A DNA stretch of 48,632 nt from Planctomycetales bacterium (GTDB taxonomy: Bacteria > Omnitrophota > Gorgyraeia > Gygaellales > Profunditerraquicolaceae). A program made the translations under genes and the position numbers. Positions 127 through 35,669 of this stretch are shown here, one piece after another. Below the pieces are notes generated by a model. It searched no databases. It worked only from the letters and a program-made list of their open reading frames with translations, and was not told the DNA's origin. How positions within the stretch are numbered: the first letter of the stretch is position 1; the number at the start of each line of letters is the position of its first letter. Where the stretch lies: contig SBBM01000033.1 of assembly GCA_005239725.1 (NCBI GenBank), positions 1 through 48,632 on the forward strand, in the 5' to 3' direction.

Positions 127-906
127 TTATATATTAGCAAGGTTTGCAAAATCCTGTAAGCTAAGTCTTTCCGGCCTGGCATTTGCATCAACTCCGTATT
201 TTTCAAAAAAGGCATCTAACTTATGCCGCGGTAAAACTCCGTTAAGGCTGTTTCGTAAGGTTTTTCTCCGTTTATTAAACGCCGAACGGATAATCCTAAA
301 AAATGCCTTTTCATCAGCCACTCTCACCGCCGGCTCCTCCCTTACCTTCAAACGTAAAAAACAAGAATCCACTTTCGGAGGAGGGACGAAACAGGTGTTC
401 TTTATAAAAAATAAACTCTCGGACAGAGTATAATACTGTATAAAACAACTGAACGAACCGTAATCTCTTGAGTCCTCTTTAGCAACTATCCTTTTGGCAA
501 ATTCCTTCTGCACGGTAAGGAATATTGTATCAATTCTTTTCCTGAATTTTATCAGATGCTCCAATATGGGGCTGGAAATATAATAAGGGATATTGCCTAT
601 CACTTTTGCTTTTGCCTCATCTAAATACTTCTCCAAATTAAATTTCAAGATATCCTGATTAATAATTTCAATATTTGTATTATCGCTAAGATTCTTTTCG
701 AGGATACCGCACAAAGAACGGTCTATCTCTAACGCGTAAACCTTTCTTACCTTTCCGGCAACCAAGCGCGTTAATTCTCCCCTGCCTGCCCCTATTTCCA
801 GCACAACGTCGGATGGCGTAAGCCCGCAGGAGGCAATTATCTTCCGCAGGATATTCTTATCAATAAGGAAATTCTGGCCTAAACTTTTCCTGGGCCTAAC
901 CGGCAT
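127..906 (-). CDS. rsmA: 16S rRNA (adenine(1518)-N(6)/adenine(1519)-N(6))-dimethyltransferase
   Basis: KSLGQNFLIDKNILRKII, VLEIGAGRGELT, NIPYYISSPIL motifs of the KsgA/RsmA family. Confidence 0.97.
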   Translation of the reverse strand: MPVRPRKSLGQNFLIDKNILRKIIASCGLTPSDVVLEIGAGRGELTRLVAGKVRKVYALEIDRSLCGILEKNLSDNTNIEIINQDILKFNLEKYLDEAKAKVIGNIPYYISSPILEHLIKFRKRIDTIFLTVQKEFAKRIVAKEDSRDYGSFSCFIQYYTLSESLFFIKNTCFVPPPKVDSCFLRLKVREEPAVRVADEKAFFRIIRSAFNKRRKTLRNSLNGVLPRHKLDAFFEKYGVDANARPERLSLQDFANLANI

Positions 907-909
907 AAT

Positions 910-1296
910 CTAAGCTAACATCCCCTTTGCCAGGTTAACCGCCGCATCAAGCTGGTCCAATTTTACCGGCTTGAGAAGGTAGGCAAAGGCATTCAGTTTG
1001 CGCGCAGCTTCCATTTTATCTTTATCGCTAAGGCGCGTAACCATTATACAAACGGCATCCTTATCTATCTCTTTTATTCTCCTTAAGGTTTCGACGCCGT
1101 CAAAGGCCGAATATGGCATATGTATATCTATGAGACAAATGTGCGGTTTCTCCTTCTGGTAAACCTCAACCGCAGATGCGCCATCAGTCACGCCAAATGC
1201 GGTAAAACCTTTTCTTGTAAAAATCTTTTTCACAAAATCCACGATACCCGGCTCATCGTCTACAACTAAAAGTTTTAATTCTGCGCTACTTGCCAT
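910..1296 (-). CDS. Stand-alone response regulator receiver protein
   Basis: VVDDEPGI, LIDIHMP phosphoacceptor region, LLKPV lysine; 128 aa with no output domain. Confidence 0.9.
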   Translation of the reverse strand: MASSAELKLLVVDDEPGIVDFVKKIFTRKGFTAFGVTDGASAVEVYQKEKPHICLIDIHMPYSAFDGVETLRRIKEIDKDAVCIMVTRLSDKDKMEAARKLNAFAYLLKPVKLDQLDAAVNLAKGMLA

Positions 1297-1307
1297 AACT
1301 TCCTCCT

Positions 1308-3437
1308 TTATTTTTTAAAAAGGTTTATTTCGTTATCTATATTATCCTGTTCTTCGGGCGTTATCTCCGTTGTCCGAGGCAGGTCAATAAAAAAGACGGC
1401 GCCCTTACCATCGCCTTCCGATTCCGCCCAAAGCATCCCCTTGTGTCTTTCAATAATTTTTTTCGCATTATATAAGCCCATTCCGGAGCCTTCGCTTGAG
1501 GCCTTGGTTGTAACGAAAGGCTGAAAGATTATCCCCAAATCTTCTTTCTTTACGCCGCAGCCTGTATCGCGGAAAGAAATCCTCGCCCATTTATGGTTAA
1601 CGGTCTCTGCCTTAAGGATAATCGTTTTTTCCTTTGACCGTTGCATGGCATGCAAAGAATTATTGGCCAGAATAACCAACACCTGCATAAGCTGTGGCTT
1701 TTCTCCGCGCACAAAACCCAGCCCTTCGGGTATTTCCTTAATAAAAGTTATGCCTGCGGATTTAAACCTGGGGAAGTAAAGCTGGTTAAAACTTTCAATG
1801 ACATCGTTTATTCTTAAAGGCTTCAATTCCCCGGTTACGGGCCGGCCGAAGTCCCTTATTGCCTCTACCATGGCAGAAACCCTCCAGGCGGAATCTAAAA
1901 TATAAGAAAGCGAACCCTTTATTTCCCTTTCTTTCTTAGGAGACAAATTCAGTTCTTTGAGCAGGGTATTCTCCAAGGTTTCCGCCTGGCCGATAATGGT
2001 ATATATGGGGTTGTCTATTTCGTGGGCAAGCGAATAGGAATAAGTATCCATCTCCTGGAGGCGGGCTACGCGCTGCCTGTCCTCTATCTCTTTCCAGAAA
2101 TTGCAATTTTCGATGGCCAATGCCGTTGAATAAGAAAGGGTTTCAAAAACAAGCATATCATCTGGCGTATACATCCGGTTTTGCGGCTTTGAGCCCAGCA
2201 TCATTATACCCAACAATTCATCTTCCACGAAACAAGGCACGATAAGACTGCAATTCGGGCCTGATTTAAGCAGGTGTTGCAGCTCTTCGCCAAGTAGCGG
2301 CCTCTTGTTGGCAGAAAGCAACTTTACGATAGGCGCATCAAAAGGTATAAATCCTGCAAGTTTACTTTCCGAATCTTCCGGATGGCGATATTTACATCCA
2401 TAGCTTTTATGTAATTCATCTTTCAAATAAAACGCAATATAGTCTACCCTCACGACATCCGCAACAGTTAATACAATAGATTTCAGGAGTTGCCCTAAAT
2501 CGCGTATCCGGGCCATTTCCCGGGAGAGTTCCCTTAATGCCCTTTGATAACGGTGCTGTTCCCTGAGCATGGCCTCTTCAGCCTTTTTTCTCAGGTATTG
2601 GTAAACAATCTGCCCTGTACCCGCCAAGAAGAACATAACCCAGGTCGCCGCCAGCCACCGCCCGTATTCATAGCCCAAGAAGAACGGGATGCCCAGGACT
2701 AAAGCGTACACAACAACAAATATCCCTGCGCGGGTAAGGGCAAGGTTGATATCCATCAGGTTGTATTTAACTATGGCGTAGGCGGTTGCCAGCGTATAAA
2801 GAGTTATGGCGTACGTTCCGTACGGCATGAGAACCGGAATTTCAATATTAAAAGTCGGAAAAAAGTTCGGTACGCCTCCGATGTACGAAAATAAAAGCGG
2901 AAAATAAAAATATTTCATCTGGTTTTTTCTGTGCCCGCTTGCCCGCAAATATTCTTTAAACAATTCAATATTGCCGTAAACCGCCCAGGCAATCCACATC
3001 CAAAAGAACGCGTAATATAACTTCCCGGGATTGATGAAATAGCGGAAAGAAAACTTGGGCACTACCTCTAAAATCAAAAGCGGCGTAGCGTCTAATATGA
3101 CAAATAAACTGCCTAGTATATAAGAAACCGGGATTAACTTTCTCTTCCAGCCTTTGATATTAATCAGGAGAAATATAAAGTGGACAAGGAATATCGGTAT
3201 AAAAACAACGCCTATATGGTTAATCCTCCATAATGCAAGAGCGAGCGATTTGTCGTATCGGGTGATTCCCAGGGCCTCAAAAATACTCCAGAGGAATAAG
3301 CTAAAGGAATAAAGGGCGAACAGTTGGTTCAGCCTTTTATTAAAGCCTTTTAAAAGGACAAATATTCCCAGGCCGCCGTTAAAAATACCGGTTGCCAATA
3401 AAGCGATAAAGTATTGTTTTAGTGTAGAATCAAGCAT
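1308..3437 (-). CDS. Sensor histidine kinase: N-terminal multi-TM (7TM-like) region, GAF-like domain, HisKA/HATPase_c
   Basis: Multiple hydrophobic helices; H-box SLAHEIDNPI; N-box NNSLHAM; G-boxes DTGCGV and GSGMGLYNAKKIIE. Confidence 0.93.
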   Translation of the reverse strand: MLDSTLKQYFIALLATGIFNGGLGIFVLLKGFNKRLNQLFALYSFSLFLWSIFEALGITRYDKSLALALWRINHIGVVFIPIFLVHFIFLLINIKGWKRKLIPVSYILGSLFVILDATPLLILEVVPKFSFRYFINPGKLYYAFFWMWIAWAVYGNIELFKEYLRASGHRKNQMKYFYFPLLFSYIGGVPNFFPTFNIEIPVLMPYGTYAITLYTLATAYAIVKYNLMDINLALTRAGIFVVVYALVLGIPFFLGYEYGRWLAATWVMFFLAGTGQIVYQYLRKKAEEAMLREQHRYQRALRELSREMARIRDLGQLLKSIVLTVADVVRVDYIAFYLKDELHKSYGCKYRHPEDSESKLAGFIPFDAPIVKLLSANKRPLLGEELQHLLKSGPNCSLIVPCFVEDELLGIMMLGSKPQNRMYTPDDMLVFETLSYSTALAIENCNFWKEIEDRQRVARLQEMDTYSYSLAHEIDNPIYTIIGQAETLENTLLKELNLSPKKEREIKGSLSYILDSAWRVSAMVEAIRDFGRPVTGELKPLRINDVIESFNQLYFPRFKSAGITFIKEIPEGLGFVRGEKPQLMQVLVILANNSLHAMQRSKEKTIILKAETVNHKWARISFRDTGCGVKKEDLGIIFQPFVTTKASSEGSGMGLYNAKKIIERHKGMLWAESEGDGKGAVFFIDLPRTTEITPEEQDNIDNEINLFKK

Positions 3438-4218
3438 CTTTCCTTGCTAAATTTGAGGCTATCAACGCCGCCCCCAACGCTCCGATAATCTGGGGGTTTT
3501 CCGGAATATTGACCTTTATATTCGGAAGTTTTGCCTTTATGGCTTCTATGATACCGATATTCTTACCGACCCCTCCTGTTAAAGTCAGGGCGCTGGCTAA
3601 TCTGACCTTATGGGCAAGGCTTAACACCCTGTCTGCCGCGGCATTATGAAGCGCGCGGGCAACATCCTGGCGTGTTTCGCCTTCTGCCAGCAAAGAAACT
3701 ACTTCCGACTCGGCAAATACGGCGCACATACTGCTGATTACTAAATTTTTTTTGGATTCAAGCGACAGCCTCCCGAAATCTTCTACGGTAGTATCCAATG
3801 CCTTTGCCATTTCTTCCAGAAACCTGCCTGTGCCGGCAGCGCACTTATCGTTCATATGGAAATCTACCGCATCCCCTGAATCGCCCAGGCGTATAGCCTT
3901 ACTGTCCTGGCCTCCTACATCAATCACCGTCCTTGTATCCGGGAAAAGAAAATGAGCACCCCTGGCGTGGCAGCTTATTTCTGATACCTCATCGGACTTA
4001 AAAGGTACAATTTTTCTTCCGTAGCCGGTGGCAATCAAATTAGTTATGTCGCCGAATGAAATTTTTGCTTTGTCCAGGACCAATTGTATACATTCCTCGG
4101 CAGCCTTTTTGCTGCTTGCGCCTGTACGCAATATTTGCGAATATAAAATTTTCTTATTTTTATCAATAATAACCGCCTTTGTCGAAACTGAACCTATGTC
4201 AAGCCCCGCAAAAATCAT
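3430..4218 (-). CDS. Acyl-CoA dehydratase activase / BadF-BadG-BcrA-BcrD-HgdC family ATPase
   Basis: GLDIGSVSTKAVIID, DVGGQDSKAI, NDKCAAGTGRFLE and SSMCAVFAESEVVSLLAEG with both [4Fe-4S] cysteines; LTGGVGKN. Confidence 0.94.
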   Translation of the reverse strand: MIFAGLDIGSVSTKAVIIDKNKKILYSQILRTGASSKKAAEECIQLVLDKAKISFGDITNLIATGYGRKIVPFKSDEVSEISCHARGAHFLFPDTRTVIDVGGQDSKAIRLGDSGDAVDFHMNDKCAAGTGRFLEEMAKALDTTVEDFGRLSLESKKNLVISSMCAVFAESEVVSLLAEGETRQDVARALHNAAADRVLSLAHKVRLASALTLTGGVGKNIGIIEAIKAKLPNIKVNIPENPQIIGALGAALIASNLARKDA

Positions 4219-5459
4219 CCCTTAAGCCTTTTCTTTCTGCCTAAAATTTCCACAAAGGCATCTATGCGCGTTTTAATCTGGCCGTCGGAATAATCCCTCC
4301 TGTCTATACAATCGCCGTCTAAAATAAGTACAGGGATGTCTTTGTCGCGGAGGGCATCTTTAAGCATCTGCGTACTTGCGCTTAAAAATCTGCAGCCCCA
4401 ATGGGCAAACTCAACAATCCCGTCTATGCTATAATCAACAACAAAACTTTTGGTAGAATCAAGCCAGCGCTGAACCTCTCCAAATCCGTAATTGCTGAGC
4501 AGCTTCCTTGCCAGGCTTCTGAACGGGTCTTCGGGATCCATCCTTTCCCAATAAACGTGGTTTGCTTCTTCAAAGACGATTGCGGCCCTGTGTTTGCGCT
4601 CTAAATACTCTAAAGGCGCAAGCGTATAATAGGGCCTTAATTGGCGCCAAAGAATCCTGTGCCTTTCTTCATCCAGAGAACCTATCCTGCTATCTACCCT
4701 GCCTTTTAACTCTCTATATAACGTTTCGCAAATCTCTACCATTTCCTTGCAGCCAAAGGTATGGGCAAGCATGATTGCGTAATCTATAGCCTCTCCGCCC
4801 AACATCGGCGTGGGTTTATTCTTTCTTAATTCATTTACTTCAACATAATAATCCCGCGCCTGGTTTGAATACTCGATAGCCGTTTTTAGTTTATTTATAT
4901 TGAATTCCCTTTTGCAATTATCAGCCATCTTCAGCATTATGTTTTCAATCTGCTTAGCCACATAGTCTATAGCGTAAGGGCGGTTGTAATCATAGGGGAC
5001 ATCTATATAATAAAACGGCCTATTATATTTCTTGCTTAAACTATAAAAAGTCTGGGCCGAACCATGGCAATAAAGCGAAGTGGCAATCAAAAAATCAGGC
5101 ATAGGCATATAATTATTTATTACCGCGCCGACTGTGCCGCGTAAAAATGAACAGGTATCCCTTGAGTGGTTATTATCCTCGGCTATTCTCAAGATGTCGT
5201 CGGTAAGATGGGAATTTGCAAACATTGAGACAATACTCTCAGGCGGGAAGGGTACGATATCAAGCGCAAATAATATTTCGCTAGGGACGAAAGAGCTCCT
5301 CCAGGCGACTACGGAATCCTCCTGGTAAGCCTTCCTGAAGAGCTTCCCTGTAAGCGCAGAGCGTAATTTTGTGGCTTGTAAATTGTGATATGGAGAAGGC
5401 TCTTTCTCGCGGCTATTCTTTAATAAGCCGCATAAATTCTTAAACTGACCCTTTCTGAT
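4215..5459 (-). CDS. 2-hydroxyacyl-CoA dehydratase subunit D-like (HgdB/BcrB/DCCP-type) protein, probable non-ATG (ATC) start; the track ORF begins at an internal ATG at 5225
   Basis: The frame stays open upstream of 5225 and encodes AWRSSFVPSEILFALDIVPFPPESIVS, the typical N-terminal family motif. GGAGG followed by a 5-nt spacer and an in-frame ATC at 5459. Cysteine motifs DTCSFLRG, SLYCHG, HWGCRF. Confidence 0.82.
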   Translation of the reverse strand: MRKGQFKNLCGLLKNSREKEPSPYHNLQATKLRSALTGKLFRKAYQEDSVVAWRSSFVPSEILFALDIVPFPPESIVSMFANSHLTDDILRIAEDNNHSRDTCSFLRGTVGAVINNYMPMPDFLIATSLYCHGSAQTFYSLSKKYNRPFYYIDVPYDYNRPYAIDYVAKQIENIMLKMADNCKREFNINKLKTAIEYSNQARDYYVEVNELRKNKPTPMLGGEAIDYAIMLAHTFGCKEMVEICETLYRELKGRVDSRIGSLDEERHRILWRQLRPYYTLAPLEYLERKHRAAIVFEEANHVYWERMDPEDPFRSLARKLLSNYGFGEVQRWLDSTKSFVVDYSIDGIVEFAHWGCRFLSASTQMLKDALRDKDIPVLILDGDCIDRRDYSDGQIKTRIDAFVEILGRKKRLKG

Positions 5460-5485
5460 GTTTCCCTCCAGGATAGACCTTTTAA

Positions 5486-7057
5486 TTATTTATTGCATCC
5501 GGCAGTCTCTCGCCTTGGGTTTCCTGATTTAAGAGTTTCCATGAATGCCTGAATCCGGGTCATAATCTGACCCACGGCAGTCGTGTTGTGCTCTGTCTCG
5601 ATACGCAGGACCGGGATGCCGCAGCCAGACAAAGTTTCTTTTATATCCGGGAATTCAAACAAATACGGGTCGTCAAATTTCAGTATGTGGTATATAACCC
5701 CGCCTATTTTAAATTCCTTTATCAGGTCCAATAAATATTCGGCCCGCTCGTCCTGGCTTACAAAGGTAGCCGACGGCGCCTTAAACTTTATATACCTTTC
5801 CGCAATTGCCGAAATTGGGTCACTGCCTTCCCGGGCTAAGCCAGAAAAATACCTGTACCTTGTGCATAAATCTTCGCAGACAACTATTCCGCCGCAAGAC
5901 TCTATGACATCAAGCAACCATGGTTGATCCTGGAAGCTGCCGGTGAGGAGTATTCTAAAACCCTCCTTTTCACCGGCTTCGGGTTTTATTTTGTCAAGCA
6001 GGTTTGCTAAGGAAATATTAAAACTGTTTTTATCGCCTGTCATCGCTAATTTACAAATCTCGAGGAACTGTTGAGGGGTAACCGGGGGGTTAGCTGTTTT
6101 TCTTAAAGCGTTTAATCCGGTTAAGAGTTTGCGGCTTTTGTTACATATTGAAACTGCTTCGGCAATATTTAGCCCGCTAATTTTAGTCTTGAAATATTTC
6201 TCAATCTCTTCGATTAAAAAGCATATACTCTCTCTGTAATGTATGATTGCGTTTTCATCAAAGCGCTTGGGGATATCAAAAAGGTGGCCGAAAGGCACAT
6301 TGGCATATCTTACCCAGGCATCATAGAGTCTTTTAGTCACATCAGTCGAGCCGCCGATAATTATACCGTCTAAAAAATTATAGTCGCCGTTTAAACCGCA
6401 CTCCAGTACACTTTGCACGTTTGAACACAGATTTCCCGAAAGGTAGGTTTTTGACAGGCTTATAGGTATAGACGCGCCCATAACCCGGTAAGGAATAAAT
6501 CCAGCTGCGATTATTATCTCTTCCGGAACATAGGTATTATTCCATCCCAGGATAGGCAAGCCTTTTTGTATAATAAGGCGTTTATTATATTCGGTTTGCT
6601 TGGCGATAAAATCGTCTATTATTTTCTTGTTGCCGAAGGTTTCCCAAAAATCGGACTTTTCACCCCTCATGCCCTCTTTTACATCAAGGCATTTTTCTAT
6701 TGCATCCAGAAATATATCTTTATCAAAAGGCTTTATCATAAAGCGGTAGATATTAAGCCGTGATACCTTATCGAATACATCGGCATCCGGATATGCGGTG
6801 ATTATCATGAATTTACTCAGGGAGGATTTTGATTCTGCCTGGATTTGCCTTATCTTTTCTATGGTCTGGATACCATCAAAATCAGGCATTCTCAGGTCGG
6901 TGATGATGAGATTAAAAGATATATTCTTTATTACCTCCAGTGCCTTTTTGCCGTCGTCAATAACGGTCAGTTCGTAGCCTTCCTTTATCAGTAATTTTTC
7001 AATGGCGCGCAGGACAATTTCATTGTCATCTATCAGGAGGACTTTGCCTTTCCCCAT
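5486..7057 (-). CDS. Response regulator receiver domain fused to a 2-hydroxyacyl-CoA dehydratase (HgdB-like) domain
   Basis: N-terminal receiver (LLIDDNEI, LIITDLRMP, MIITA, MIKPF); C-terminal GWNNTYVPEEIIIAAGFIPYRV, NLCSNVQSVLECG, VVCEDLCTRYRYF, VIYHILKFDDPYLFEFP. Confidence 0.9.
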   Translation of the reverse strand: MGKGKVLLIDDNEIVLRAIEKLLIKEGYELTVIDDGKKALEVIKNISFNLIITDLRMPDFDGIQTIEKIRQIQAESKSSLSKFMIITAYPDADVFDKVSRLNIYRFMIKPFDKDIFLDAIEKCLDVKEGMRGEKSDFWETFGNKKIIDDFIAKQTEYNKRLIIQKGLPILGWNNTYVPEEIIIAAGFIPYRVMGASIPISLSKTYLSGNLCSNVQSVLECGLNGDYNFLDGIIIGGSTDVTKRLYDAWVRYANVPFGHLFDIPKRFDENAIIHYRESICFLIEEIEKYFKTKISGLNIAEAVSICNKSRKLLTGLNALRKTANPPVTPQQFLEICKLAMTGDKNSFNISLANLLDKIKPEAGEKEGFRILLTGSFQDQPWLLDVIESCGGIVVCEDLCTRYRYFSGLAREGSDPISAIAERYIKFKAPSATFVSQDERAEYLLDLIKEFKIGGVIYHILKFDDPYLFEFPDIKETLSGCGIPVLRIETEHNTTAVGQIMTRIQAFMETLKSGNPRRETAGCNK

Positions 7058-7119: not shown

Positions 7120-7148
7120 ATGGTAAGTCTTTATTTGCGCTTTGTCAA
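7120..7148 (-). promoter_or_regulatory. Candidate sigma70 promoter (TTGACA-N17-TACCAT) for the receiver-HgdB operon; -35 overlaps the pdxA stop codon
   Basis: 6/6 -35 hexamer, 17-nt spacer, 4/6 -10; about 60 nt upstream of the first ORF. Confidence 0.5.
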
Positions 7149-8152
7149 GCAAAAAGACCTGAATGTCTTACGCAAGTTACGGAAAGCTTGATGGCTTCAA
7201 TCAGAGACACTGGATTGGCTACATTTGTTGCGGCAATATCAAAGGCAGTGCCGTGCAGGGGAGAGGTCCTTATAAAGGGCAGGCCTAAAGTCATGTTAAC
7301 GCCGGTAAGTCCGCCGGATAACTTCAGGGGGATGAGCGCCTGGTCATGGTACATCGCGATTACACAATCATATTTCTTCTCTTTTGCCCTGAGTATGGCA
7401 ATATCCGAAGGCATTGGCCCGTCAATACCTCCAAGGCGCGCTTTTAGTTTTTCCAAAACCGGCTTGATAATCTTCTGCTCTTCATCTCCAATAACACCGT
7501 TATCAGAGGCATGGGGATTAAGGCCGCATACCGCTATTTTTGGCTTTCTAATTAAAAATAATTCTTTTAACGCATTATGAGTCAACAGGATAGTGTTAAA
7601 TACCTTGTCTTTAGTTATTTTTTGCGGCACATCTTTTAGCGGCACATGCGTAGTCGCCAGGCTGATTTTAAGGATGTTATTCAGGAGCATCATCACAACA
7701 TCCTTTGTATGCGTTTGTTTTGCCAGGTATTCCGTGTGCCCGGAATATTTAAAACCGGACAAAGCCGTTGCTTCCTTGGAAATAGGGCAGGTCACCAGAG
7801 AGTCGATTTCCTTATTCTTAAGTAGCTCCAGCGCTTTATCAAGGTATTGTATGGATGCCCTCCCGTATTCTGCCTTTATCCTGCCAAACCGGAAATTTTT
7901 ATGCGCCACATTATTTAAATCGACAAATTTGACACCTGTTGGCCGTTGCCCGTTATCCCTTATCCGCTTGTTCATTAGTCTATTAGCCAGTTTGAATACA
8001 AACTCGTCGCCGATAATTACAAACTCAGCGCTTCCTTTGAGTATTTTTAAGGATTTCGCGATTATCTGCGGGCCGATACCCGAAGGGTCACCCATGGTAA
8101 TGCCTATTTTAATTTTATAGGATTTTGATAAAGGCATCTTCTTTAAGTTCAT
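7145..8152 (-). CDS. pdxA: 4-hydroxythreonine-4-phosphate dehydrogenase
   Basis: IGITMGDPSGIGPQI, CPISKEA, GHTEYLA, MYHDQALIPLK, GLPFIRTSPLHGTAFDIA. Confidence 0.97.
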   Translation of the reverse strand: MNLKKMPLSKSYKIKIGITMGDPSGIGPQIIAKSLKILKGSAEFVIIGDEFVFKLANRLMNKRIRDNGQRPTGVKFVDLNNVAHKNFRFGRIKAEYGRASIQYLDKALELLKNKEIDSLVTCPISKEATALSGFKYSGHTEYLAKQTHTKDVVMMLLNNILKISLATTHVPLKDVPQKITKDKVFNTILLTHNALKELFLIRKPKIAVCGLNPHASDNGVIGDEEQKIIKPVLEKLKARLGGIDGPMPSDIAILRAKEKKYDCVIAMYHDQALIPLKLSGGLTGVNMTLGLPFIRTSPLHGTAFDIAATNVANPVSLIEAIKLSVTCVRHSGLFA

Positions 8153-9035
8153 CCAGCCACTTTGTCAATTCTTCCTGCATTTTCTTATCATAGAGGAAAC
8201 CATAGATGCCGTCCTGCACCTCTGACAAACTCTGCTGCCTGGGAGGAGTTATATTATTTACCTTGAATATATAAAAATTCTCACCGAGTTTAAGCGGCCC
8301 GGAAACCTCATCCTTATTCAGTTTAAATACGGCATCTTCAATGTCCTTGCGCAACTCTCCGCCTTTGCGCGCTGAAACTTTGTTTGCCTGTAAATTGTAT
8401 TGTTTAAGCAAATCTTCCAGCGCCTTGCCTTCTTTAAGGCCGCGGCATATGTCCAGGGCTGTATTTTCGCTATTTACAACCAGGGAATCGAACTCCCGCT
8501 CCTCCTCTGCCCGGAAGTCCTGGATATTTTTAGTATAAAAATCCGTTACTTCTGCGGGCTTTATAATAATCTTGCTCCTTATCCTGTCCTCAATAATATT
8601 GTACATAAGCAGCTGGTCCTCGATTTTAGACTCAATATCGGCTTCAACCATCCCCTGTCTCCTTAAGGATTCCTGGAATGCGGAATCTGTCCCATAGTTT
8701 TTTTTGATTTCGGATACCCTTGCCTTAATCCTGTTGCGGTCTATTTTTATACTGGCTTTCTTTGCTTCCTGCAGAATCAGGCGGTCTTCTATCAGCCTCT
8801 GCAACAGGTCCGGTTTTATGCCTTCAATCTTATCCTCCAGTGCCGCTTGAGTAAATTGCCCGGATAATTGTAGGCGGGTAAAATGGATGAAATCATCCAG
8901 GTCTTTCTGGGTAATAACATCCTTGTTGACAATGGCGATGATTTTGTCCTGGGCAAAAGATTCGTAAATAGTAACTAGTAACCCGTAACTAGTAATAAAC
9001 ATAAATAGAAAAATAACTCTTAATAACTTAACCAT
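8115..9035 (-). CDS. SurA-like periplasmic chaperone / peptidyl-prolyl isomerase family protein
   Basis: Signal peptide, then DKIIAIVNKDVITQKDLDDF and a SurA_N-like helical region with a PPIC-like C-terminus (LRKDIEDAVFKLNKDEVSGPLKLGENFYIFKV). Confidence 0.85.
   Translation of the reverse strand: MVKLLRVIFLFMFITSYGLLVTIYESFAQDKIIAIVNKDVITQKDLDDFIHFTRLQLSGQFTQAALEDKIEGIKPDLLQRLIEDRLILQEAKKASIKIDRNRIKARVSEIKKNYGTDSAFQESLRRQGMVEADIESKIEDQLLMYNIIEDRIRSKIIIKPAEVTDFYTKNIQDFRAEEEREFDSLVVNSENTALDICRGLKEGKALEDLLKQYNLQANKVSARKGGELRKDIEDAVFKLNKDEVSGPLKLGENFYIFKVNNITPPRQQSLSEVQDGIYGFLYDKKMQEELTKWLDELKEDAFIKIL
8971..8995. repeat. AACTAGTAACYCGTAACTAGTAA-type repeat, copy inside the signal-peptide coding region of the SurA-like gene
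   Basis: GTAACTAGTAACCCGTAACTAGTAA, matching 15748-15770 with one C/T change. Confidence 0.7.
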
Positions 9036-11012: not shown

Positions 11013-11398
11013 CTAAGAATTATTAACTACTCGTGCAATCTCTAGCCTGTTTTTAGCAAAATTTAAAATTAACCCGATATTTTTACGAGAAGTCTTAAGG
11101 TAGGAGATTATTTGGGCTTTATGTATAGGCAATACCCCTGGAACGCATTTTAGTTCTACAATAACTGAATCCTCAATCAGAAAATCAACCCTTTGGCTGC
11201 CTGATTGCGCATCTTTGTATTCTACTTTAATTGTCTTTTGCCCAACAAAAGGCATCTTTGCTTTTTCTAACTCATAATCTAAAGCCTTTTCATAAATACC
11301 TTCCGTAAATCCTGGCCCAGCTTATTATGGATTTTAAAAGAAATACCTATTATCTTTTCGGTTAATCCATTTAAAAATTCTTTGTTTATCTGCGCCAT
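11013..11398 (-). pseudogene. GxxExxY family protein, single-base frameshift
   Basis: MAQINKEFLNGLTEKIIGISFKIHNKLG in one frame, then (P)GFTEGIYEKALDYELEKAKMPFVGQKTIKVEYKD... in another; shift near 11311-11320. The track ORF 11013-11255 is only the 3' part. Confidence 0.82.
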
Positions 11399-27107: not shown

Positions 27108-28286
27108 ATGTTAGATTTAAACATTATGGAAGAACTGCACAAGCTTAAGCAGGAAGCAGAGCGCACCAGGAACGAACTGACTATCCTCTACGAAATCTCC
27201 AACGCCATGCGCACAACCTTAAAATTAGAGGAGATTTTATATATAATCCTCACCAGCGTGACTGCGCACATAGGTTTGGGTTTTAACCGGGCCATACTCT
27301 TCCTGGTGAACGAAAAAGACGGGCTTATTGAAGGGAAGATGGGCATAGGCCCTGAAACTGGCGAAGAGGCTAACCGTGTCTGGAAACAGATTGAACAGGA
27401 AAAGATGGATTTAGACGACCTTATAAATACTTACCGGGTTTCCAAACATATCCAGGAATCTGGCTTCAACCGCCAGGTGCAACAGTTAAAATACCGGCTG
27501 GATAACCCCGATGAAAAACTCCTGCTCCTGGGGGCTTTAGAGGGGATGCCCCTGCATCTGACTAAAGAAACCATACAGAATTACAGCCATGACCCGATAG
27601 TACAGTCGCTGAAAACCGAAGAGCTGGTTCTTGTCCCCTTAAAAGCCAAAGACAAGGTAAACGGCATAATCCTGGCTGATAATTTCATCACCCAAAAACC
27701 TATCACCAAAGATGACCTGCGCATGCTGATTATGCTGGCCAACCAGGCAGGGCTTGCCATAGAAAATTCCCAGCTTTTTGAAAAGACTGTTATCCGCGCC
27801 CATTCCGATTATTTGACGGAACTATGGAACCATGGGCACTTCCAGTACCTGCTTTCGACAAGCCTGGAAAAAGCAAAAGCCACATCTTCGCCTCTAAGTC
27901 TGCTTCTACTCGATATTGACAATTTTAAAATTTATAATGACACGCTGGGGCACCAGGCAGGAGACATGATATTAAAGGAGCTGGCGTTATTACTCAAGAA
28001 CCAATCGCGGAAAATGGATTATGCCTGCCGTTACGGTGGAGAGGAATTTGCTATTGTACTCCCTTTAACCGATAAGAAAGAGGCATTTTTGATTGCCGAA
28101 CGGCTAAGGGAAAATATTGCCCGGCATTCTTTCGCCCACCAGGAAATACTCCCCAATAAAAACCTCACCGTGAGCATTGGCCTTGCGTCCTTTCCGGAAA
28201 AAGGTCTATCGCCATCCGAACTAATCGCTTCTGCCGATAAAGCCCTGTACCAAGCAAAACATCAGGGGAAAAATAAAACCTGTTAA
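27108..28286 (+). CDS. GAF-GGDEF diguanylate cyclase (start may be 27126)
   Basis: GAF-like N-terminal region; DYLTELWNHGHFQYLL, DIDNFKIYNDTLGHQAGD, YACRYGGEEFAIVLP (GGEEF), VSIGLASFPEKG. Confidence 0.95.
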   Translation: MLDLNIMEELHKLKQEAERTRNELTILYEISNAMRTTLKLEEILYIILTSVTAHIGLGFNRAILFLVNEKDGLIEGKMGIGPETGEEANRVWKQIEQEKMDLDDLINTYRVSKHIQESGFNRQVQQLKYRLDNPDEKLLLLGALEGMPLHLTKETIQNYSHDPIVQSLKTEELVLVPLKAKDKVNGIILADNFITQKPITKDDLRMLIMLANQAGLAIENSQLFEKTVIRAHSDYLTELWNHGHFQYLLSTSLEKAKATSSPLSLLLLDIDNFKIYNDTLGHQAGDMILKELALLLKNQSRKMDYACRYGGEEFAIVLPLTDKKEAFLIAERLRENIARHSFAHQEILPNKNLTVSIGLASFPEKGLSPSELIASADKALYQAKHQGKNKTC

Positions 28287-32037: not shown

Positions 32038-32385
32038 CTAATATTTTCTCTGGGCTTTGATTGTGCGTAAAACAATTGGTATGGGCTTTAACTTCGTCTC
32101 TTCTAATTTAATGCCAATTCTGTATTTGCCCGGCTCAAGCATACTTGACCAAACGCTGTGGCCCCGCACATTAATCGTCTCGCCGGTATCAACCATTTTG
32201 AGGTCTATATTTAAACGGGTCCCGGGCGGTAATCCTTTATTGGTTAATAAACACATTCCCTCAATACTTATATCATAAGTCTTGCTCGGGTTTTCTGTGT
32301 TCGGGCCGCTTTCAAGATAAGTTGTCGGTATGCCTATAGTAAATCGCGTAAATAGTCTTCTCTCTATTCCCCGGCCGTAATCCAT
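32038..32385 (-). CDS. PilZ domain protein
   Basis: ERRLFTRFTIGIPTTYLE...TYDISIEGMCLLTNKGLPPGTRLNIDLKM, RGHSVWSSMLEPGKYRIGIKLEE. Confidence 0.85.
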   Translation of the reverse strand: MDYGRGIERRLFTRFTIGIPTTYLESGPNTENPSKTYDISIEGMCLLTNKGLPPGTRLNIDLKMVDTGETINVRGHSVWSSMLEPGKYRIGIKLEETKLKPIPIVLRTIKAQRKY

Positions 32386-32528: not shown

Positions 32529-33731
32529 TCATTTTTTGAGGGCTTCTTTAAATTTTTTAGTCAAGGCGGGGACTATCTGAAACAGGTCGCCAACGATTCC
32601 ATAAGTGGCATATTTAAAAATAGGCGCATCCGGGTCCTTGTTAATAGCAACGATGATTTTTGAGGAAGACATCCCGACAAGGTGCTGGATTTGTCCGGAA
32701 ATACCGCAGGCTATGTATATCTTCGGGGCAACTGTCCTGCCGGTCTGTCCTACCTGATGGGAATAAGGCATCCATCCGGAATCAACTGCAGCGCGTGAAG
32801 CCCCCATCGCAGCGTTCAACACATGGGCGAGTTCTTCCAGTATTTTAAAATTCTCAGGCCCGCCCATGCCGCGGCCGCCGGAAACAATTATATCCGCTTC
32901 CGCAAGGTTTACTAACGTCTCTATTTCTTCAACGATATCCAGAAGTTTTGTGCGCGAAGCATATAAAGAAGGGTCAAAATTTTCCCTGATAATCCTGCCC
33001 TTACGGTGTTTATCGGGCTCGATCGGCTGCATGACTTTATGCCTGACAGTTGCCATTTGTGGCCGGTAATTCGGTGAAATAATCGTAGCCATGATATTGC
33101 CGCCGAATGCCGGGCGGGTCTGTAACAATATCTTCCTTACCGGGTCAATATCCAATCCCGTGCAATCAGCGGTAAGCCCGGCTTTTATCCTGATTGCCAC
33201 GCGCGAAATTAAAGACCGGCCGATTGCCGTTGCCCCGCAGAGTAAAATTTCAGGCTTATGTTTCTTCACTAATTCAACCAGGATATTCGTATACGGCTCG
33301 TCCTGGAAATTCGCCAGTTCCGGCGCCTGGATTAAATAAATATTATCCGCCCCATGCCAGATTAGCTCATCCAGCTGGTCATCTAAATTATTCCCTATGA
33401 ATACGCCGCTTACCTGGCAGTTTAAACTTTTCGCTAATTCCTGGGCCTTACCTAAAAGTTCATAAGCGACAGACTGGACTTTGCCGTTCTTCTGTTCGAT
33501 AAACACCCATATCCCTTTGTAATCTTTGCTATCGGGGACTGCGCAGGTTGAAACCGGCTCTTCTTTTATTATGGCCTTAAGTTTACAGCTATGCACGCAC
33601 GCCCCGCAGATATTACACTTGGCCATGTCAATGCTTGCCTTCTTTTCCGTAATGCGTATGGCGTCAAAAGGGCAAACCTTAACACACAAAGCGCAGCCCG
33701 TGCATTTCTGAGAAATAATATGGATAGACAT
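32529..33731 (-). CDS. etfA: Electron transfer flavoprotein alpha subunit with N-terminal 2x[4Fe-4S] ferredoxin domain
   Basis: [32 protein letters not shown], then Etf[64 protein letters not shown]. Confidence 0.95.
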
Positions 33732-33733
33732 GA

Positions 33734-34516
33734 TTAATGGACCTCGTTTTTCAATAGATTTACTAATTTTTCCGCAATATCACCTGGTTCGCCAGTAAGC
33801 ATTTCCCCGCCCTTTCTCTGCGGAGGGGTAAAAATCTTGATTACCTGGGTAGGAGAGCCGTTAAGGCCTATCTGCTGCCCGTCTAAATTCAATTCCTTTT
33901 GCGTCCAGATTGTAATCTTTGCCGACTTTGCGCGCATTATCCCTTTAAGCGACGGAAGGCGCGGCTCATTTATTTCCTTTACAACCGTAAGTAATGCCGG
34001 TAGGGGCACCTCAATTACCTCAAAGCCCTCTTCCATCATTCTTTCTACGCGCATAACATTATTTTTTGCTTCCTCTATTTTCTTTACGTAAGTAACCTGA
34101 GGTATATCCAGATGCGTTGAAATCCCCGGCCCGACCTGAGCTGTATCTCCGTCGGATGCCTGTTTGCCGCAGATTATTAAGTCAAATTGCCCAATCTTCC
34201 TAATCGCTCCTGCTAAAGTATAGCTGGTTGCCCAGGTATCGCTTCCGGCAAAGGCGCGGTCACAAAGGAGTATACCCTCATCTATGCCCATTGACATTGC
34301 TTCCCTTAAACACGCCTCTGCCTGCGGAGGGCCCATAGTAATAACAGTTACCTTGCCGCCGAATTTTTCCTTAAGCCTTACGCCCTCTTCTATCGCGTAC
34401 ATATCGAAGGGATTGACGATAGATTTTACGCCTTCGCGGATAAGGGTGTTTGTTTCGGGGTTAATCCTGACATCCGTTGTCTCGGGAACTTGCTTTATGC
34501 AAACTATGATATTCAT
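33734..34516 (-). CDS. etfB: Electron transfer flavoprotein beta subunit
   Basis: MNIIVCIKQVPETTDVRINPETNTLIREGVKSIVNPFDMYAIEE, CGKQASDGDTAQVGP. Confidence 0.96.
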   Translation of the reverse strand: MNIIVCIKQVPETTDVRINPETNTLIREGVKSIVNPFDMYAIEEGVRLKEKFGGKVTVITMGPPQAEACLREAMSMGIDEGILLCDRAFAGSDTWATSYTLAGAIRKIGQFDLIICGKQASDGDTAQVGPGISTHLDIPQVTYVKKIEEAKNNVMRVERMMEEGFEVIEVPLPALLTVVKEINEPRLPSLKGIMRAKSAKITIWTQKELNLDGQQIGLNGSPTQVIKIFTPPQRKGGEMLTGEPGDIAEKLVNLLKNEVH

Positions 34517-34517
34517 C

Positions 34518-35669
34518 TTATTTTGCCATCCCCTTGATTATCTCCAGCGCTATGATATTGCGCTGTATCTGATTCGTCCCTTCGTATATCTGGGTAATTT
34601 TGGCATCGCGCACGTATTTTTCAATAGGATAATCCTTCATATATCCGTAACCGCCGAACAACTGCAGGGCGTCAACCGTAACCTTCATGGCAACATCCGA
34701 GGCAAACATCTTGGCCATTGCCGATTCCTTGCCCACATCCTTAATCCCGGCGTCAACCATTCTGGCCGTAGAATAAACCAGGCCTCTTGCCGCTTCAATT
34801 TCGGTGGCCATGTCCGCAATCATCCACTGCACGCCCTGAAAACTGGATATAGCTTTTCCAAACTGCTGCCTTTCCCTGACGTATTTGACCGCCAACTCCA
34901 GCGCACCCTGGGCAATGCCGAGCGCCTGGGCTGCCACGCCCGGACGGGACATATCAAACGTCTTCATAGTAACAATAAAACCCATGCCTTCCCTGGCAAT
35001 CAGGTTTTCTTTGGGGATTTTACAGTCGGTAAATATAAGCTCGCGGGTTGAAGAAGCGCGTATGCCGAATTTATCCTCTTTTTTGCCGAATGTAAATCCG
35101 GGCGTGCCCTTTTCCACGATAAACGCAGAAGCGCCCCTTGCGCCTTTGCTCTTGTCCGTCATGGCAATGATAACATATGTTTCGGCATCGCCGCCGTTAG
35201 TTATAAAATGCTTCAGCCCGTTTAAAACATAGTAGTTGCCTTCTTTTTTGGCAGTGGTTTTAATTGCCGAGGCATCAGAGCCTGCCTCGGGCTCGGTAAC
35301 GGCAAAAGCCGCTACTTTCTTGCCCTTTGCCAGGTCAGGAAGGTATTTCTTCTTCTGTTCATCGCTTCCGAAAAGCACTATCGGGAACGTGCCCAAAGCC
35401 GAAGCAGCATAGCAAACCGCGATACCGCCGCAGGCGCGCGCCAGTTCCTCGGTAGCAAGGCATAAATTCAATACGTTTACGCTCATCCCGCCGTATTCTT
35501 CGGGTATAAACAAACCGAACATATCCGCCCCTGCCAAGACTTTTATGATTTCCCAGGGATACTCTTCGCTGATATCATATTTTGCGGCAACCGGCCGTAT
35601 CTTTTCCTCGGCTATCTTATGCGCCAAATCTTTAATCATTTTTTGCTCTTCAGTCAACAAATAATCCAT
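34518..35669 (-). CDS. Acyl-CoA dehydrogenase
   Basis: AFAVTEPEAGSDASAIKTTA, RQQFGKAISSFQGVQWMIADMA, LQLFGGYGYMKDYPIEKYVRDAKITQIYEGTNQIQRNIIA. Confidence 0.96.
   Translation of the reverse strand: MDYLLTEEQKMIKDLAHKIAEEKIRPVAAKYDISEEYPWEIIKVLAGADMFGLFIPEEYGGMSVNVLNLCLATEELARACGGIAVCYAASALGTFPIVLFGSDEQKKKYLPDLAKGKKVAAFAVTEPEAGSDASAIKTTAKKEGNYYVLNGLKHFITNGGDAETYVIIAMTDKSKGARGASAFIVEKGTPGFTFGKKEDKFGIRASSTRELIFTDCKIPKENLIAREGMGFIVTMKTFDMSRPGVAAQALGIAQGALELAVKYVRERQQFGKAISSFQGVQWMIADMATEIEAARGLVYSTARMVDAGIKDVGKESAMAKMFASDVAMKVTVDALQLFGGYGYMKDYPIEKYVRDAKITQIYEGTNQIQRNIIALEIIKGMAK

Follow-up and report, generated by a model that had tools for sequence, protein, structure and literature searches.

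Gene content and organization of the locus

The window, i.e. the whole stretch of 48,632 nucleotides analysed here, carries at positions 910–7057 a block of five minus-strand genes encoding a fusion of a receiver with an HGD-D subunit (β), a second HGD-D subunit (α), an activase, a histidine kinase of the 7TM-GAF type and a lone receiver. The features of this block and of its flanks are:

127..906, minus strand: ksgA (RrnaAD), downstream flank
910..1296, minus strand: stand-alone receiver, 128 aa, canonical acceptor site
1308..3437, minus strand: 7TM-GAF-HisKA-HATPase histidine kinase, 709 aa, assigned by Pfam domains and motif boxes
3430..4218, minus strand: HgdC/BadF-type activase (archerase), 262 aa, BcrAD_BadFG and TIGR00241
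4215..5459, minus strand: HGD-D(α), BzdO/HadB-like, ~414 aa, probable ATC start at 5459
5486..7057, minus strand: receiver-HGD-D(β) fusion, 523 aa, Response_reg and HGD-D
7120..7148, minus strand: candidate sigma-70 promoter TTGACA-N17-TACCAT (weak)
7145..8152, minus strand: pdxA, upstream flank
8115–9035: surA, beyond pdxA

The α and activase genes overlap by 4 nt (ATGA, with the α stop at 4215) and the activase and kinase genes by 8 nt, the gap between the kinase and the lone receiver being 11 nt; the coordinates, strand and spacing given in the earlier note thus all hold, and the identities it had assigned to the five genes agree with Pfam and NCBIfam. The ATG at 5225 is not the start of α: homology, Pfam and a confident structure model all reach ~78 residues further upstream, in a frame without ATG, GTG or TTG, the best start candidate there being the ATC at 5459, located 5 nt past GGAGG.

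The five genes have been cleanly inserted between pdxA and ksgA. In the relatives, pdxA is directly followed by ksgA in 26 of the 26 cases where both genes are visible, and the edges of the five-gene block coincide exactly with gene ends, its spacing being operon-like and its G+C content even throughout. Concerning the transcription context, the block is not isolated, since the distance from the last receiver to the start of ksgA downstream is 3 nt, and the end of pdxA lies 87 nt upstream of the fusion. The promoter proposed for the first gene is indeed present as a site (7148–7120; 10 of 12 matches, joint best of 26 against 17.7 ± 3.8 in shuffles); as evidence for a promoter of the block it is weak, however, and it shares nucleotides with the stop codon of pdxA.

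No DNA-binding regulator is encoded among the five genes, and the genes adjoining the block include no substrate-pathway genes, both a CoA-transferase and a hydroxyacyl dehydrogenase being absent from them. The latter absence had been taken to argue against a fermentation operon; it is, however, not diagnostic, because the related operons examined from Clostridia and Desulfobacterota also adjoin unrelated genes. It was likewise discarded as evidence for signalling: the related trios in other phyla stand alone, and the contig does carry an operon for EtfAB and acyl-CoA dehydrogenase. This operon lies 25 kb off the block.

Sequence features of the encoded proteins

The fusion protein (Pfam: Response_reg 75 bits, HGD-D 273 bits) consists of a receiver (residues ~1–125), a flexible linker (~130–140) and a BzdN/HadC-like HGD-D domain (~141–511). 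The phospho-acceptor residues of its receiver (DD, D, T, K) are intact. The positions corresponding to cluster ligands in the fused β are occupied by N174, C211, S237, C398, P428 and D462. At the three core positions the window and its nearest relative, the locus L033, have C, S and D, whereas every other β readable at all three positions has C, C and C; the three core cysteines that define a β with its own Fe-S cluster in the HAD/BCR superfamily are therefore incomplete in the β from the window.

The three cysteines that ligate the open-site [4Fe-4S] cluster, Cys95/128/380 in BzdO (PMC11971306), are all present in the α subunit (HGD-D 240 bits). This subunit also retains a glutamate apparently matching Glu65 of BzdO and likely to be catalytic. 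The activase (BcrAD_BadFG 199 bits; TIGR00241 CoA_E_activ 249.6, cut-off 125.4) has C126 and C165 in conserved motifs at the ligand positions of the inter-subunit [4Fe-4S] cluster, i.e. the two cysteines per subunit needed for a bridging cluster. The gene set of the HAD/BCR superfamily—two HGD-D (PF06050) subunits and a CoA_E_activ/BcrAD_BadFG activase—is thus present, with all cluster cysteines retained in α and the activase, unlike in the fused β and its nearest relative, where two of the three core ligands are gone. New here is this loss of core ligands in β beside intact cysteines in both α and the activase.

With regard to the signalling proteins, HisKA_7TM, GAF, HisKA and HATPase_c were each found over the Pfam cut-off in the kinase, its H-box reads LAHEIDNP and its N, G1 and G2 boxes are intact. 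The lone receiver (Response_reg 85 bits) has its DD, D, T and K residues preserved, so that the two-component motifs are complete in both the kinase and the receiver.

That the receiver-β fusion results from misassembly, or that β is a decaying pseudo-subunit, is highly improbable. The source genome is, to be sure, a metagenome-type draft (80% complete, 63 contigs), the fusion was met just once and the start codon of α is non-canonical; the fusion is, however, encoded by an unbroken frame of 523 codons covering a complete receiver and a full-length β including its N-terminal helix, and, as stated above, the borders of the block match gene ends exactly, its spacing is that of an operon and its G+C is uniform. 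Moreover, the ligand substitutions in the window and L033 are identical at 57–59% sequence identity, for which reason the altered β has been maintained as an intact reading frame over a long divergence.

Distribution and evolutionary relationships

The order β-α-activase-7TM kinase is shared by the window and the loci L033 (genome G123) and L044 (genome G288), which represent three Omnitrophota families of a single class, and in all three the kinase start overlaps the activase end (by 8, 8 and 4 nt). The earlier note had named a non-conserved gene order as grounds for rejection; with the order kept in three families, this objection fails. In the evolutionary trees, the three kinase-linked βs form one clade (97/92), as do the three kinase-linked αs with slightly lower support (94/82), while the activase tree, which does not group the three loci, is uninformative. 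The β of L033 is unfused, its start being visible. In L044, β appears to be unfused too, no receiver being seen ahead of it, and none follows the kinase; the ATPase domain of this kinase is weak and its G2 box degenerate. It should be pointed out that the L044 β retains all three core cysteines, so the cluster loss is not common to the whole kinase-linked clade.

The cassette is rare. The search for the receiver/HGD-D architecture suggested in the earlier note revealed that the kinase-linked neighbourhood recurs, but the fusion itself was found in the window only, not being seen elsewhere in 386 genomes of the phylum or among 72,556 plasmid records, none of which covered 80% of the query. No further copies were detected in the window's own family (108 genomes) or in the families f17 (19) and f9 (26). 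Outside the phylum, the A1 profile search—covering 247, 180 and 220 genomes from the phyla to which a Geobacteraceae, an Elusimicrobia and a Clostridia genome belong, respectively—yielded many β-α-activase trios, and in the 40 neighbourhoods read from them no activase-coupled kinase of the window type was present. Two hybrid kinases, one following the trio of L125 beyond a second activase-like frame and the other convergent to the trio of L137, were judged to be unrelated arrangements.

Relationship to known systems

The closest relatives of α outside Omnitrophota (L110 with 388 bits, L112 and L117; 35–39% identity in α) belong to the trios from Clostridia and Desulfobacterota, which have the identical three-gene set but neither an operon kinase nor a receiver, and keep the core cysteines of β where readable.

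Among the characterized systems, the top fold matches come from the class I benzoyl-CoA reductase BzdNOPQ, with α corresponding to BzdO (TM 0.87) and β to BzdN (TM 0.90 by target length). Only two of the six cysteine positions of the [8Fe-9S] cluster of BzdN are kept in the β from the window (the C73 and C263 equivalents), a single activase gene stands in place of P and Q, and the equivalog cut-offs for the Bzd/Bcr/Mbd enzymes (TIGR03190/03191/02260/02263) are not reached. The dehydratases HadBC with HadI and HgdAB with HgdC resemble the locus in having two homologous HGD-D subunits and a homodimer-type activase. HadB matches α, all three cluster cysteines of which are kept, with a TM of 0.85 at 21% identity, and HadC the HGD domain of β with a TM of 0.89 by target length at 26% identity. 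The window differs from both in the two missing cluster cysteines of β, the fused receiver, the kinase and receiver in the operon, and the lack of an adjoining CoA-transferase or hydroxyacyl dehydrogenase. An ordinary fermentation dehydratase was rejected at the equivalog level, the HadB and HadC NCBIfam models giving 122 bits (cut-off 750) and 166 bits (cut-off 700). The double-cubane cluster proteins (DCCP/DCCP-R, NF040772) are also HGD-D proteins supplied by an ATP-driven activase; DCCP is, however, a single HGD-D protein with a double-cubane site, whereas the window encodes two different ones with the ligand set missing from β, and it was ruled out on 193 bits against a cut-off of 350 and cysteine at two of the six double-cubane ligand positions.

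It is rather unlikely that the locus encodes an ordinary stand-alone BCR/HAD-type reductase or dehydratase, with the kinase reporting substrate or redox state to distant regulators and the receiver fusion being a minor feature of localization or stability. In its favour, β-α-activase trios lacking signalling genes occur commonly in Clostridia and Desulfobacterota, the α motif and the likely catalytic glutamate are intact, and the contig does bear the EtfAB/acyl-CoA dehydrogenase operon. Such an enzyme would hardly account for the unusual ligand loss, by which the window and L033 stand alone among the readable βs, nor for the overlapping kinase and activase genes in three loci, the receiver physically joined to the enzyme in one of them, and a block devoid of any DNA-binding regulator.

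Possible function

The electrons that HAD/BCR-type enzymes generate at the expense of ATP are among those of lowest potential in biology. The searched literature contained no post-translational switch or two-component regulation of these enzymes, and nothing relevant combining a receiver domain with a 2-hydroxyacyl-CoA dehydratase. In the characterized dehydratases, the β cluster is the first acceptor of the activase electron (PMC11574389), and 2-hydroxyglutaryl-CoA dehydratase has one cluster per subunit according to a review (PMC8473912). Since the fused β lacks two of the three core ligands, this textbook path through β cannot apply, and the idea that phosphorylation gates an ordinary ATP-driven Fe-S reductase is weakened. 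The gain of a receiver together with the loss of ligands in β suggests that phosphorylation switches the enzyme or that the enzyme has been turned into a sensor.

The reading preferred here, although only tentatively, is that a horizontally moved Omnitrophota cassette couples a BCR/HAD-type Fe-S module to two-component signalling, the putatively cluster-less, receiver-carrying β serving as a regulatory scaffold. The α and β subunits would form the usual heterodimer on which the activase docks, and the 7TM-GAF kinase would sense a signal and phosphorylate the receiver borne by β. The short flexible linker ties this receiver to the N-terminal helix of β, whose counterpart in BzdNO is part of the helix bundle that lines the CoA channel (PMC11971306); because of this connection, phosphorylation might alter activase docking or ligand access at α. 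With the relay cluster of β gone, the activase electrons may pass straight to α, or the reduction of the α cluster may be rare and switch-like instead of high-flux. The lone receiver may act as a phosphate sink or relay the signal onward. The flexible linker and the confidently predicted HGD folds, nearest to BzdN/HadC for β and to BzdO/HadB for α, are consistent with this cassette; on the other hand, the loss of the β cluster could mean a complex without any catalysis left. It may also be observed that the fusion comes from one draft genome and that the three loci are not united by the activase tree.

In the opposite direction of information flow, α, β and the activase would be the input arm, the α cluster (responding to redox, O2 or a CoA ester) and ATP hydrolysis by the activase setting the conformation of β and thereby controlling the kinase/phosphatase or how long the receiver stays phosphorylated, with the lone receiver as output. 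This would fit a β deprived of its electron-entry cluster beside intact α and activase motifs, the conservation of the kinase, not of the receiver, as partner across the three loci, the lack of adjoining substrate genes, and a genome with 25 receiver domains, many of them in short stand-alone frames, that could receive a relay; it is nevertheless quite unlikely, given that the L044 β has its three core cysteines and the kinase already contains its own 7TM and GAF input domains.

Taken more broadly, a two-component system with an archerase-driven Fe-S enzyme as its direct effector or input—a phospho-switch of low-potential electron transfer, or a redox/acyl-CoA sensor for the kinase—is a possibility worth considering, if still a doubtful one. 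The receiver sits on the normally electron-accepting subunit in a lineage that has shed the cluster ligands of this subunit, which makes the locus a natural experiment on activase electron transfer and on whether the HGD-D fold can be re-used for signalling. PleD and PorX, matched in Foldseek via the receiver, also combine a canonical receiver with an enzyme domain, whereas the output in the window is an HGD-D subunit; if the preferred reading is true, the enzyme outputs of response regulators would gain a new type, and there would be a functional lead for an uncultured lineage with many stand-alone receivers.

Gene content and insertion site

The five intact genes described in the earlier note are all present on the minus strand at 910-7057, with the domains named there:

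5486-7057, minus strand: receiver fused to a BzdN/HadC-like HGD-D protein (beta)
4215-5459, minus strand: BzdO/HadB-like HGD-D protein (alpha)
3430-4218, minus strand: HgdC/BadF-type activase
1308-3437, minus strand: 7TM-GAF histidine kinase
910-1296, minus strand: lone receiver

In the fusion, both the receiver domain (75 bits in Pfam, with the acidic pair, the acceptor motif TDLRMP, and the T and K residues) and the HGD-D domain (Pfam, 273 bits) are complete; the activase scores above the TIGR00241 cut-off and retains both motif cysteines, and the kinase contains 7TM, GAF, HisKA and HATPase_c domains with every catalytic box. The alpha gene extends beyond its first ATG (5225), the homology reaching about codon 1 at an ATC (5459) located 5 nt downstream of GGAGG, a good Shine-Dalgarno sequence; its frame upstream of 5225 is devoid of ATG, GTG and TTG, and the extended protein is modelled with confidence from around residue 30 onward. 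Judging from the sequence, alpha seems to use this non-canonical ATC, which may reflect either an unusual initiation codon or an error in the sequence.

Concerning the genomic position, ksgA comes immediately after pdxA, at a spacing of -15 to +122 nt, in all 26 related genomes (same family or order) with both genes visible, surA being usually upstream of the pair. In the window, pdxA (7145-8152) and ksgA (127-906) are separated by the 6.2-kb five-gene block, inserted on the same strand 87 nt past pdxA and 3 nt ahead of ksgA, the G+C content being uniform across it. Across the 108 family genomes searched, the alpha gene occurs nowhere else, and the two HGD-D genes of the block are the only ones in the window genome (80% complete). 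The simplest reading is a single horizontal acquisition into a housekeeping operon, the block now being probably co-transcribed with ksgA.

Elsewhere, the 1.46-Mb genome encodes 25 receiver domains, many as short stand-alone frames in clusters (contigs C8, C16, C37 and C60). The window also contains a GAF-GGDEF diguanylate cyclase (27108-28286, plus strand, amid mostly minus-strand genes), a PilZ protein (32038-32385) and a short, possibly truncated ORF (11013-11255) whose match to PDDEXK_3 is limited to the C-terminal part.

Relatives among the Omnitrophota

HGD-D proteins above the cut-off are rare in the phylum, occurring in 20 of 386 genomes from collections sampled rather than exhausted, and two of the 20 have the arrangement of the window. 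The comparison covers three loci, i.e. one window genome and two short contigs from other Omnitrophota families:

L033 (JADHWG010000069.1, Candidatus Omnitrophota; apparently identical to contig G123:C25, which matches it in length and gene sequences): beta, alpha, activase and 7TM kinase, the last incomplete at the contig edge
L044 (G288:C52): beta (with an N gap inside), alpha, activase and 7TM-GAF kinase

The start of the kinase gene overlaps the end of the activase gene by 8 nt in the window and L033 and by 4 nt in L044. Identity between the window and L033 is about 59% for beta, 71% for alpha, 68% for the activase and 51% for the N-terminal part of the kinase. In trees built with 39-40 additional proteins, almost all of them from outside the phylum, the betas of all three loci form one group (support 97/92), as do their alphas (94/82); the activase tree was unresolved. 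The receiver-beta fusion is, among the three loci, confined to the window: the L033 beta is without a fused receiver, and in L044 no receiver was seen ahead of beta or after the kinase. The homologous genes of L033 occupy a different site, behind an HTH_17 gene and, upstream of it, a second 7TM histidine kinase (1177-2865, 562 aa). In L044, the region 2793-5843 covers the beta gene broken by the N run and, upstream, an iron-dependent repressor gene with a FeoA domain (2793-3431).

Cluster ligands and possible function

By fold and sequence, both HGD-D proteins belong to the 2-hydroxyacyl-CoA dehydratase/benzoyl-CoA reductase superfamily, but the putative heterodimer would lack a defining feature, the cluster in beta. 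In the crystal structure of the class I benzoyl-CoA reductase BzdNO, the ligands are Cys95/128/380 of BzdO and Cys36/73/100/263/293/327 of BzdN (PMC11971306). All three BzdO-type cysteines are retained in the window alpha and in every other aligned alpha; at the six BzdN positions, the fused beta has N, C, S, C, P and D, as read from the alignment. At the core positions 73/100/327, the betas of the window and L033 carry C,S,D and all other readable betas, L044 included, C,C,C, three rows being incomplete at one or two of these positions. Since the electron from the activase enters characterised dehydratases at the beta cluster before passing to alpha (PMC11574389), the window/L033 branch would be without the normal entry point. 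The model of the earlier note, an ATP-driven Fe-S reductase gated via a fused receiver, has to be modified accordingly: the block would not simply be an ordinary reductase plus a receiver. An artefact or decay is very improbable; the beta gene remains an intact ORF in both loci despite the ligand loss.

Alongside the gene content, motifs, conservation, ligand loss and insertion observed here, the best, albeit tentative, reading is a complex under kinase control via the receiver on beta: alpha, beta and the activase would form the complex, the kinase would transfer phosphate to the receiver, and phosphorylation would alter docking or electron transfer. The linker of the fusion (130-140) has low confidence in the predicted structure, as expected of a flexible linker, and runs straight into the N-terminal helix of beta. 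The counterpart helix in BzdNO lies within a four-helix bundle helping to build the CoA channel (PMC11971306), so that a receiver at this position could influence how the ligand enters or how the activase docks. Rival readings are an enzyme with a local regulator, which is somewhat less likely, and a sensor module with its output into the kinase, which is unlikely.

Outside Omnitrophota, Clostridia and Desulfobacterota contain the nearest relatives, beta-alpha-activase trios that stand alone in the genome and, to our knowledge, have no assigned function. Searches of a limited literature collection found no report linking the superfamily to two-component signalling. The block may, as far as sequences indicate, work like a system of this superfamily, but should not be filed under any of its named enzymes, every equivalog cut-off tested having been missed. 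About 25 kb from the block, an operon (32529-35669) encodes an EtfA bearing a ferredoxin domain at its N terminus, together with EtfB and an acyl-CoA dehydrogenase.
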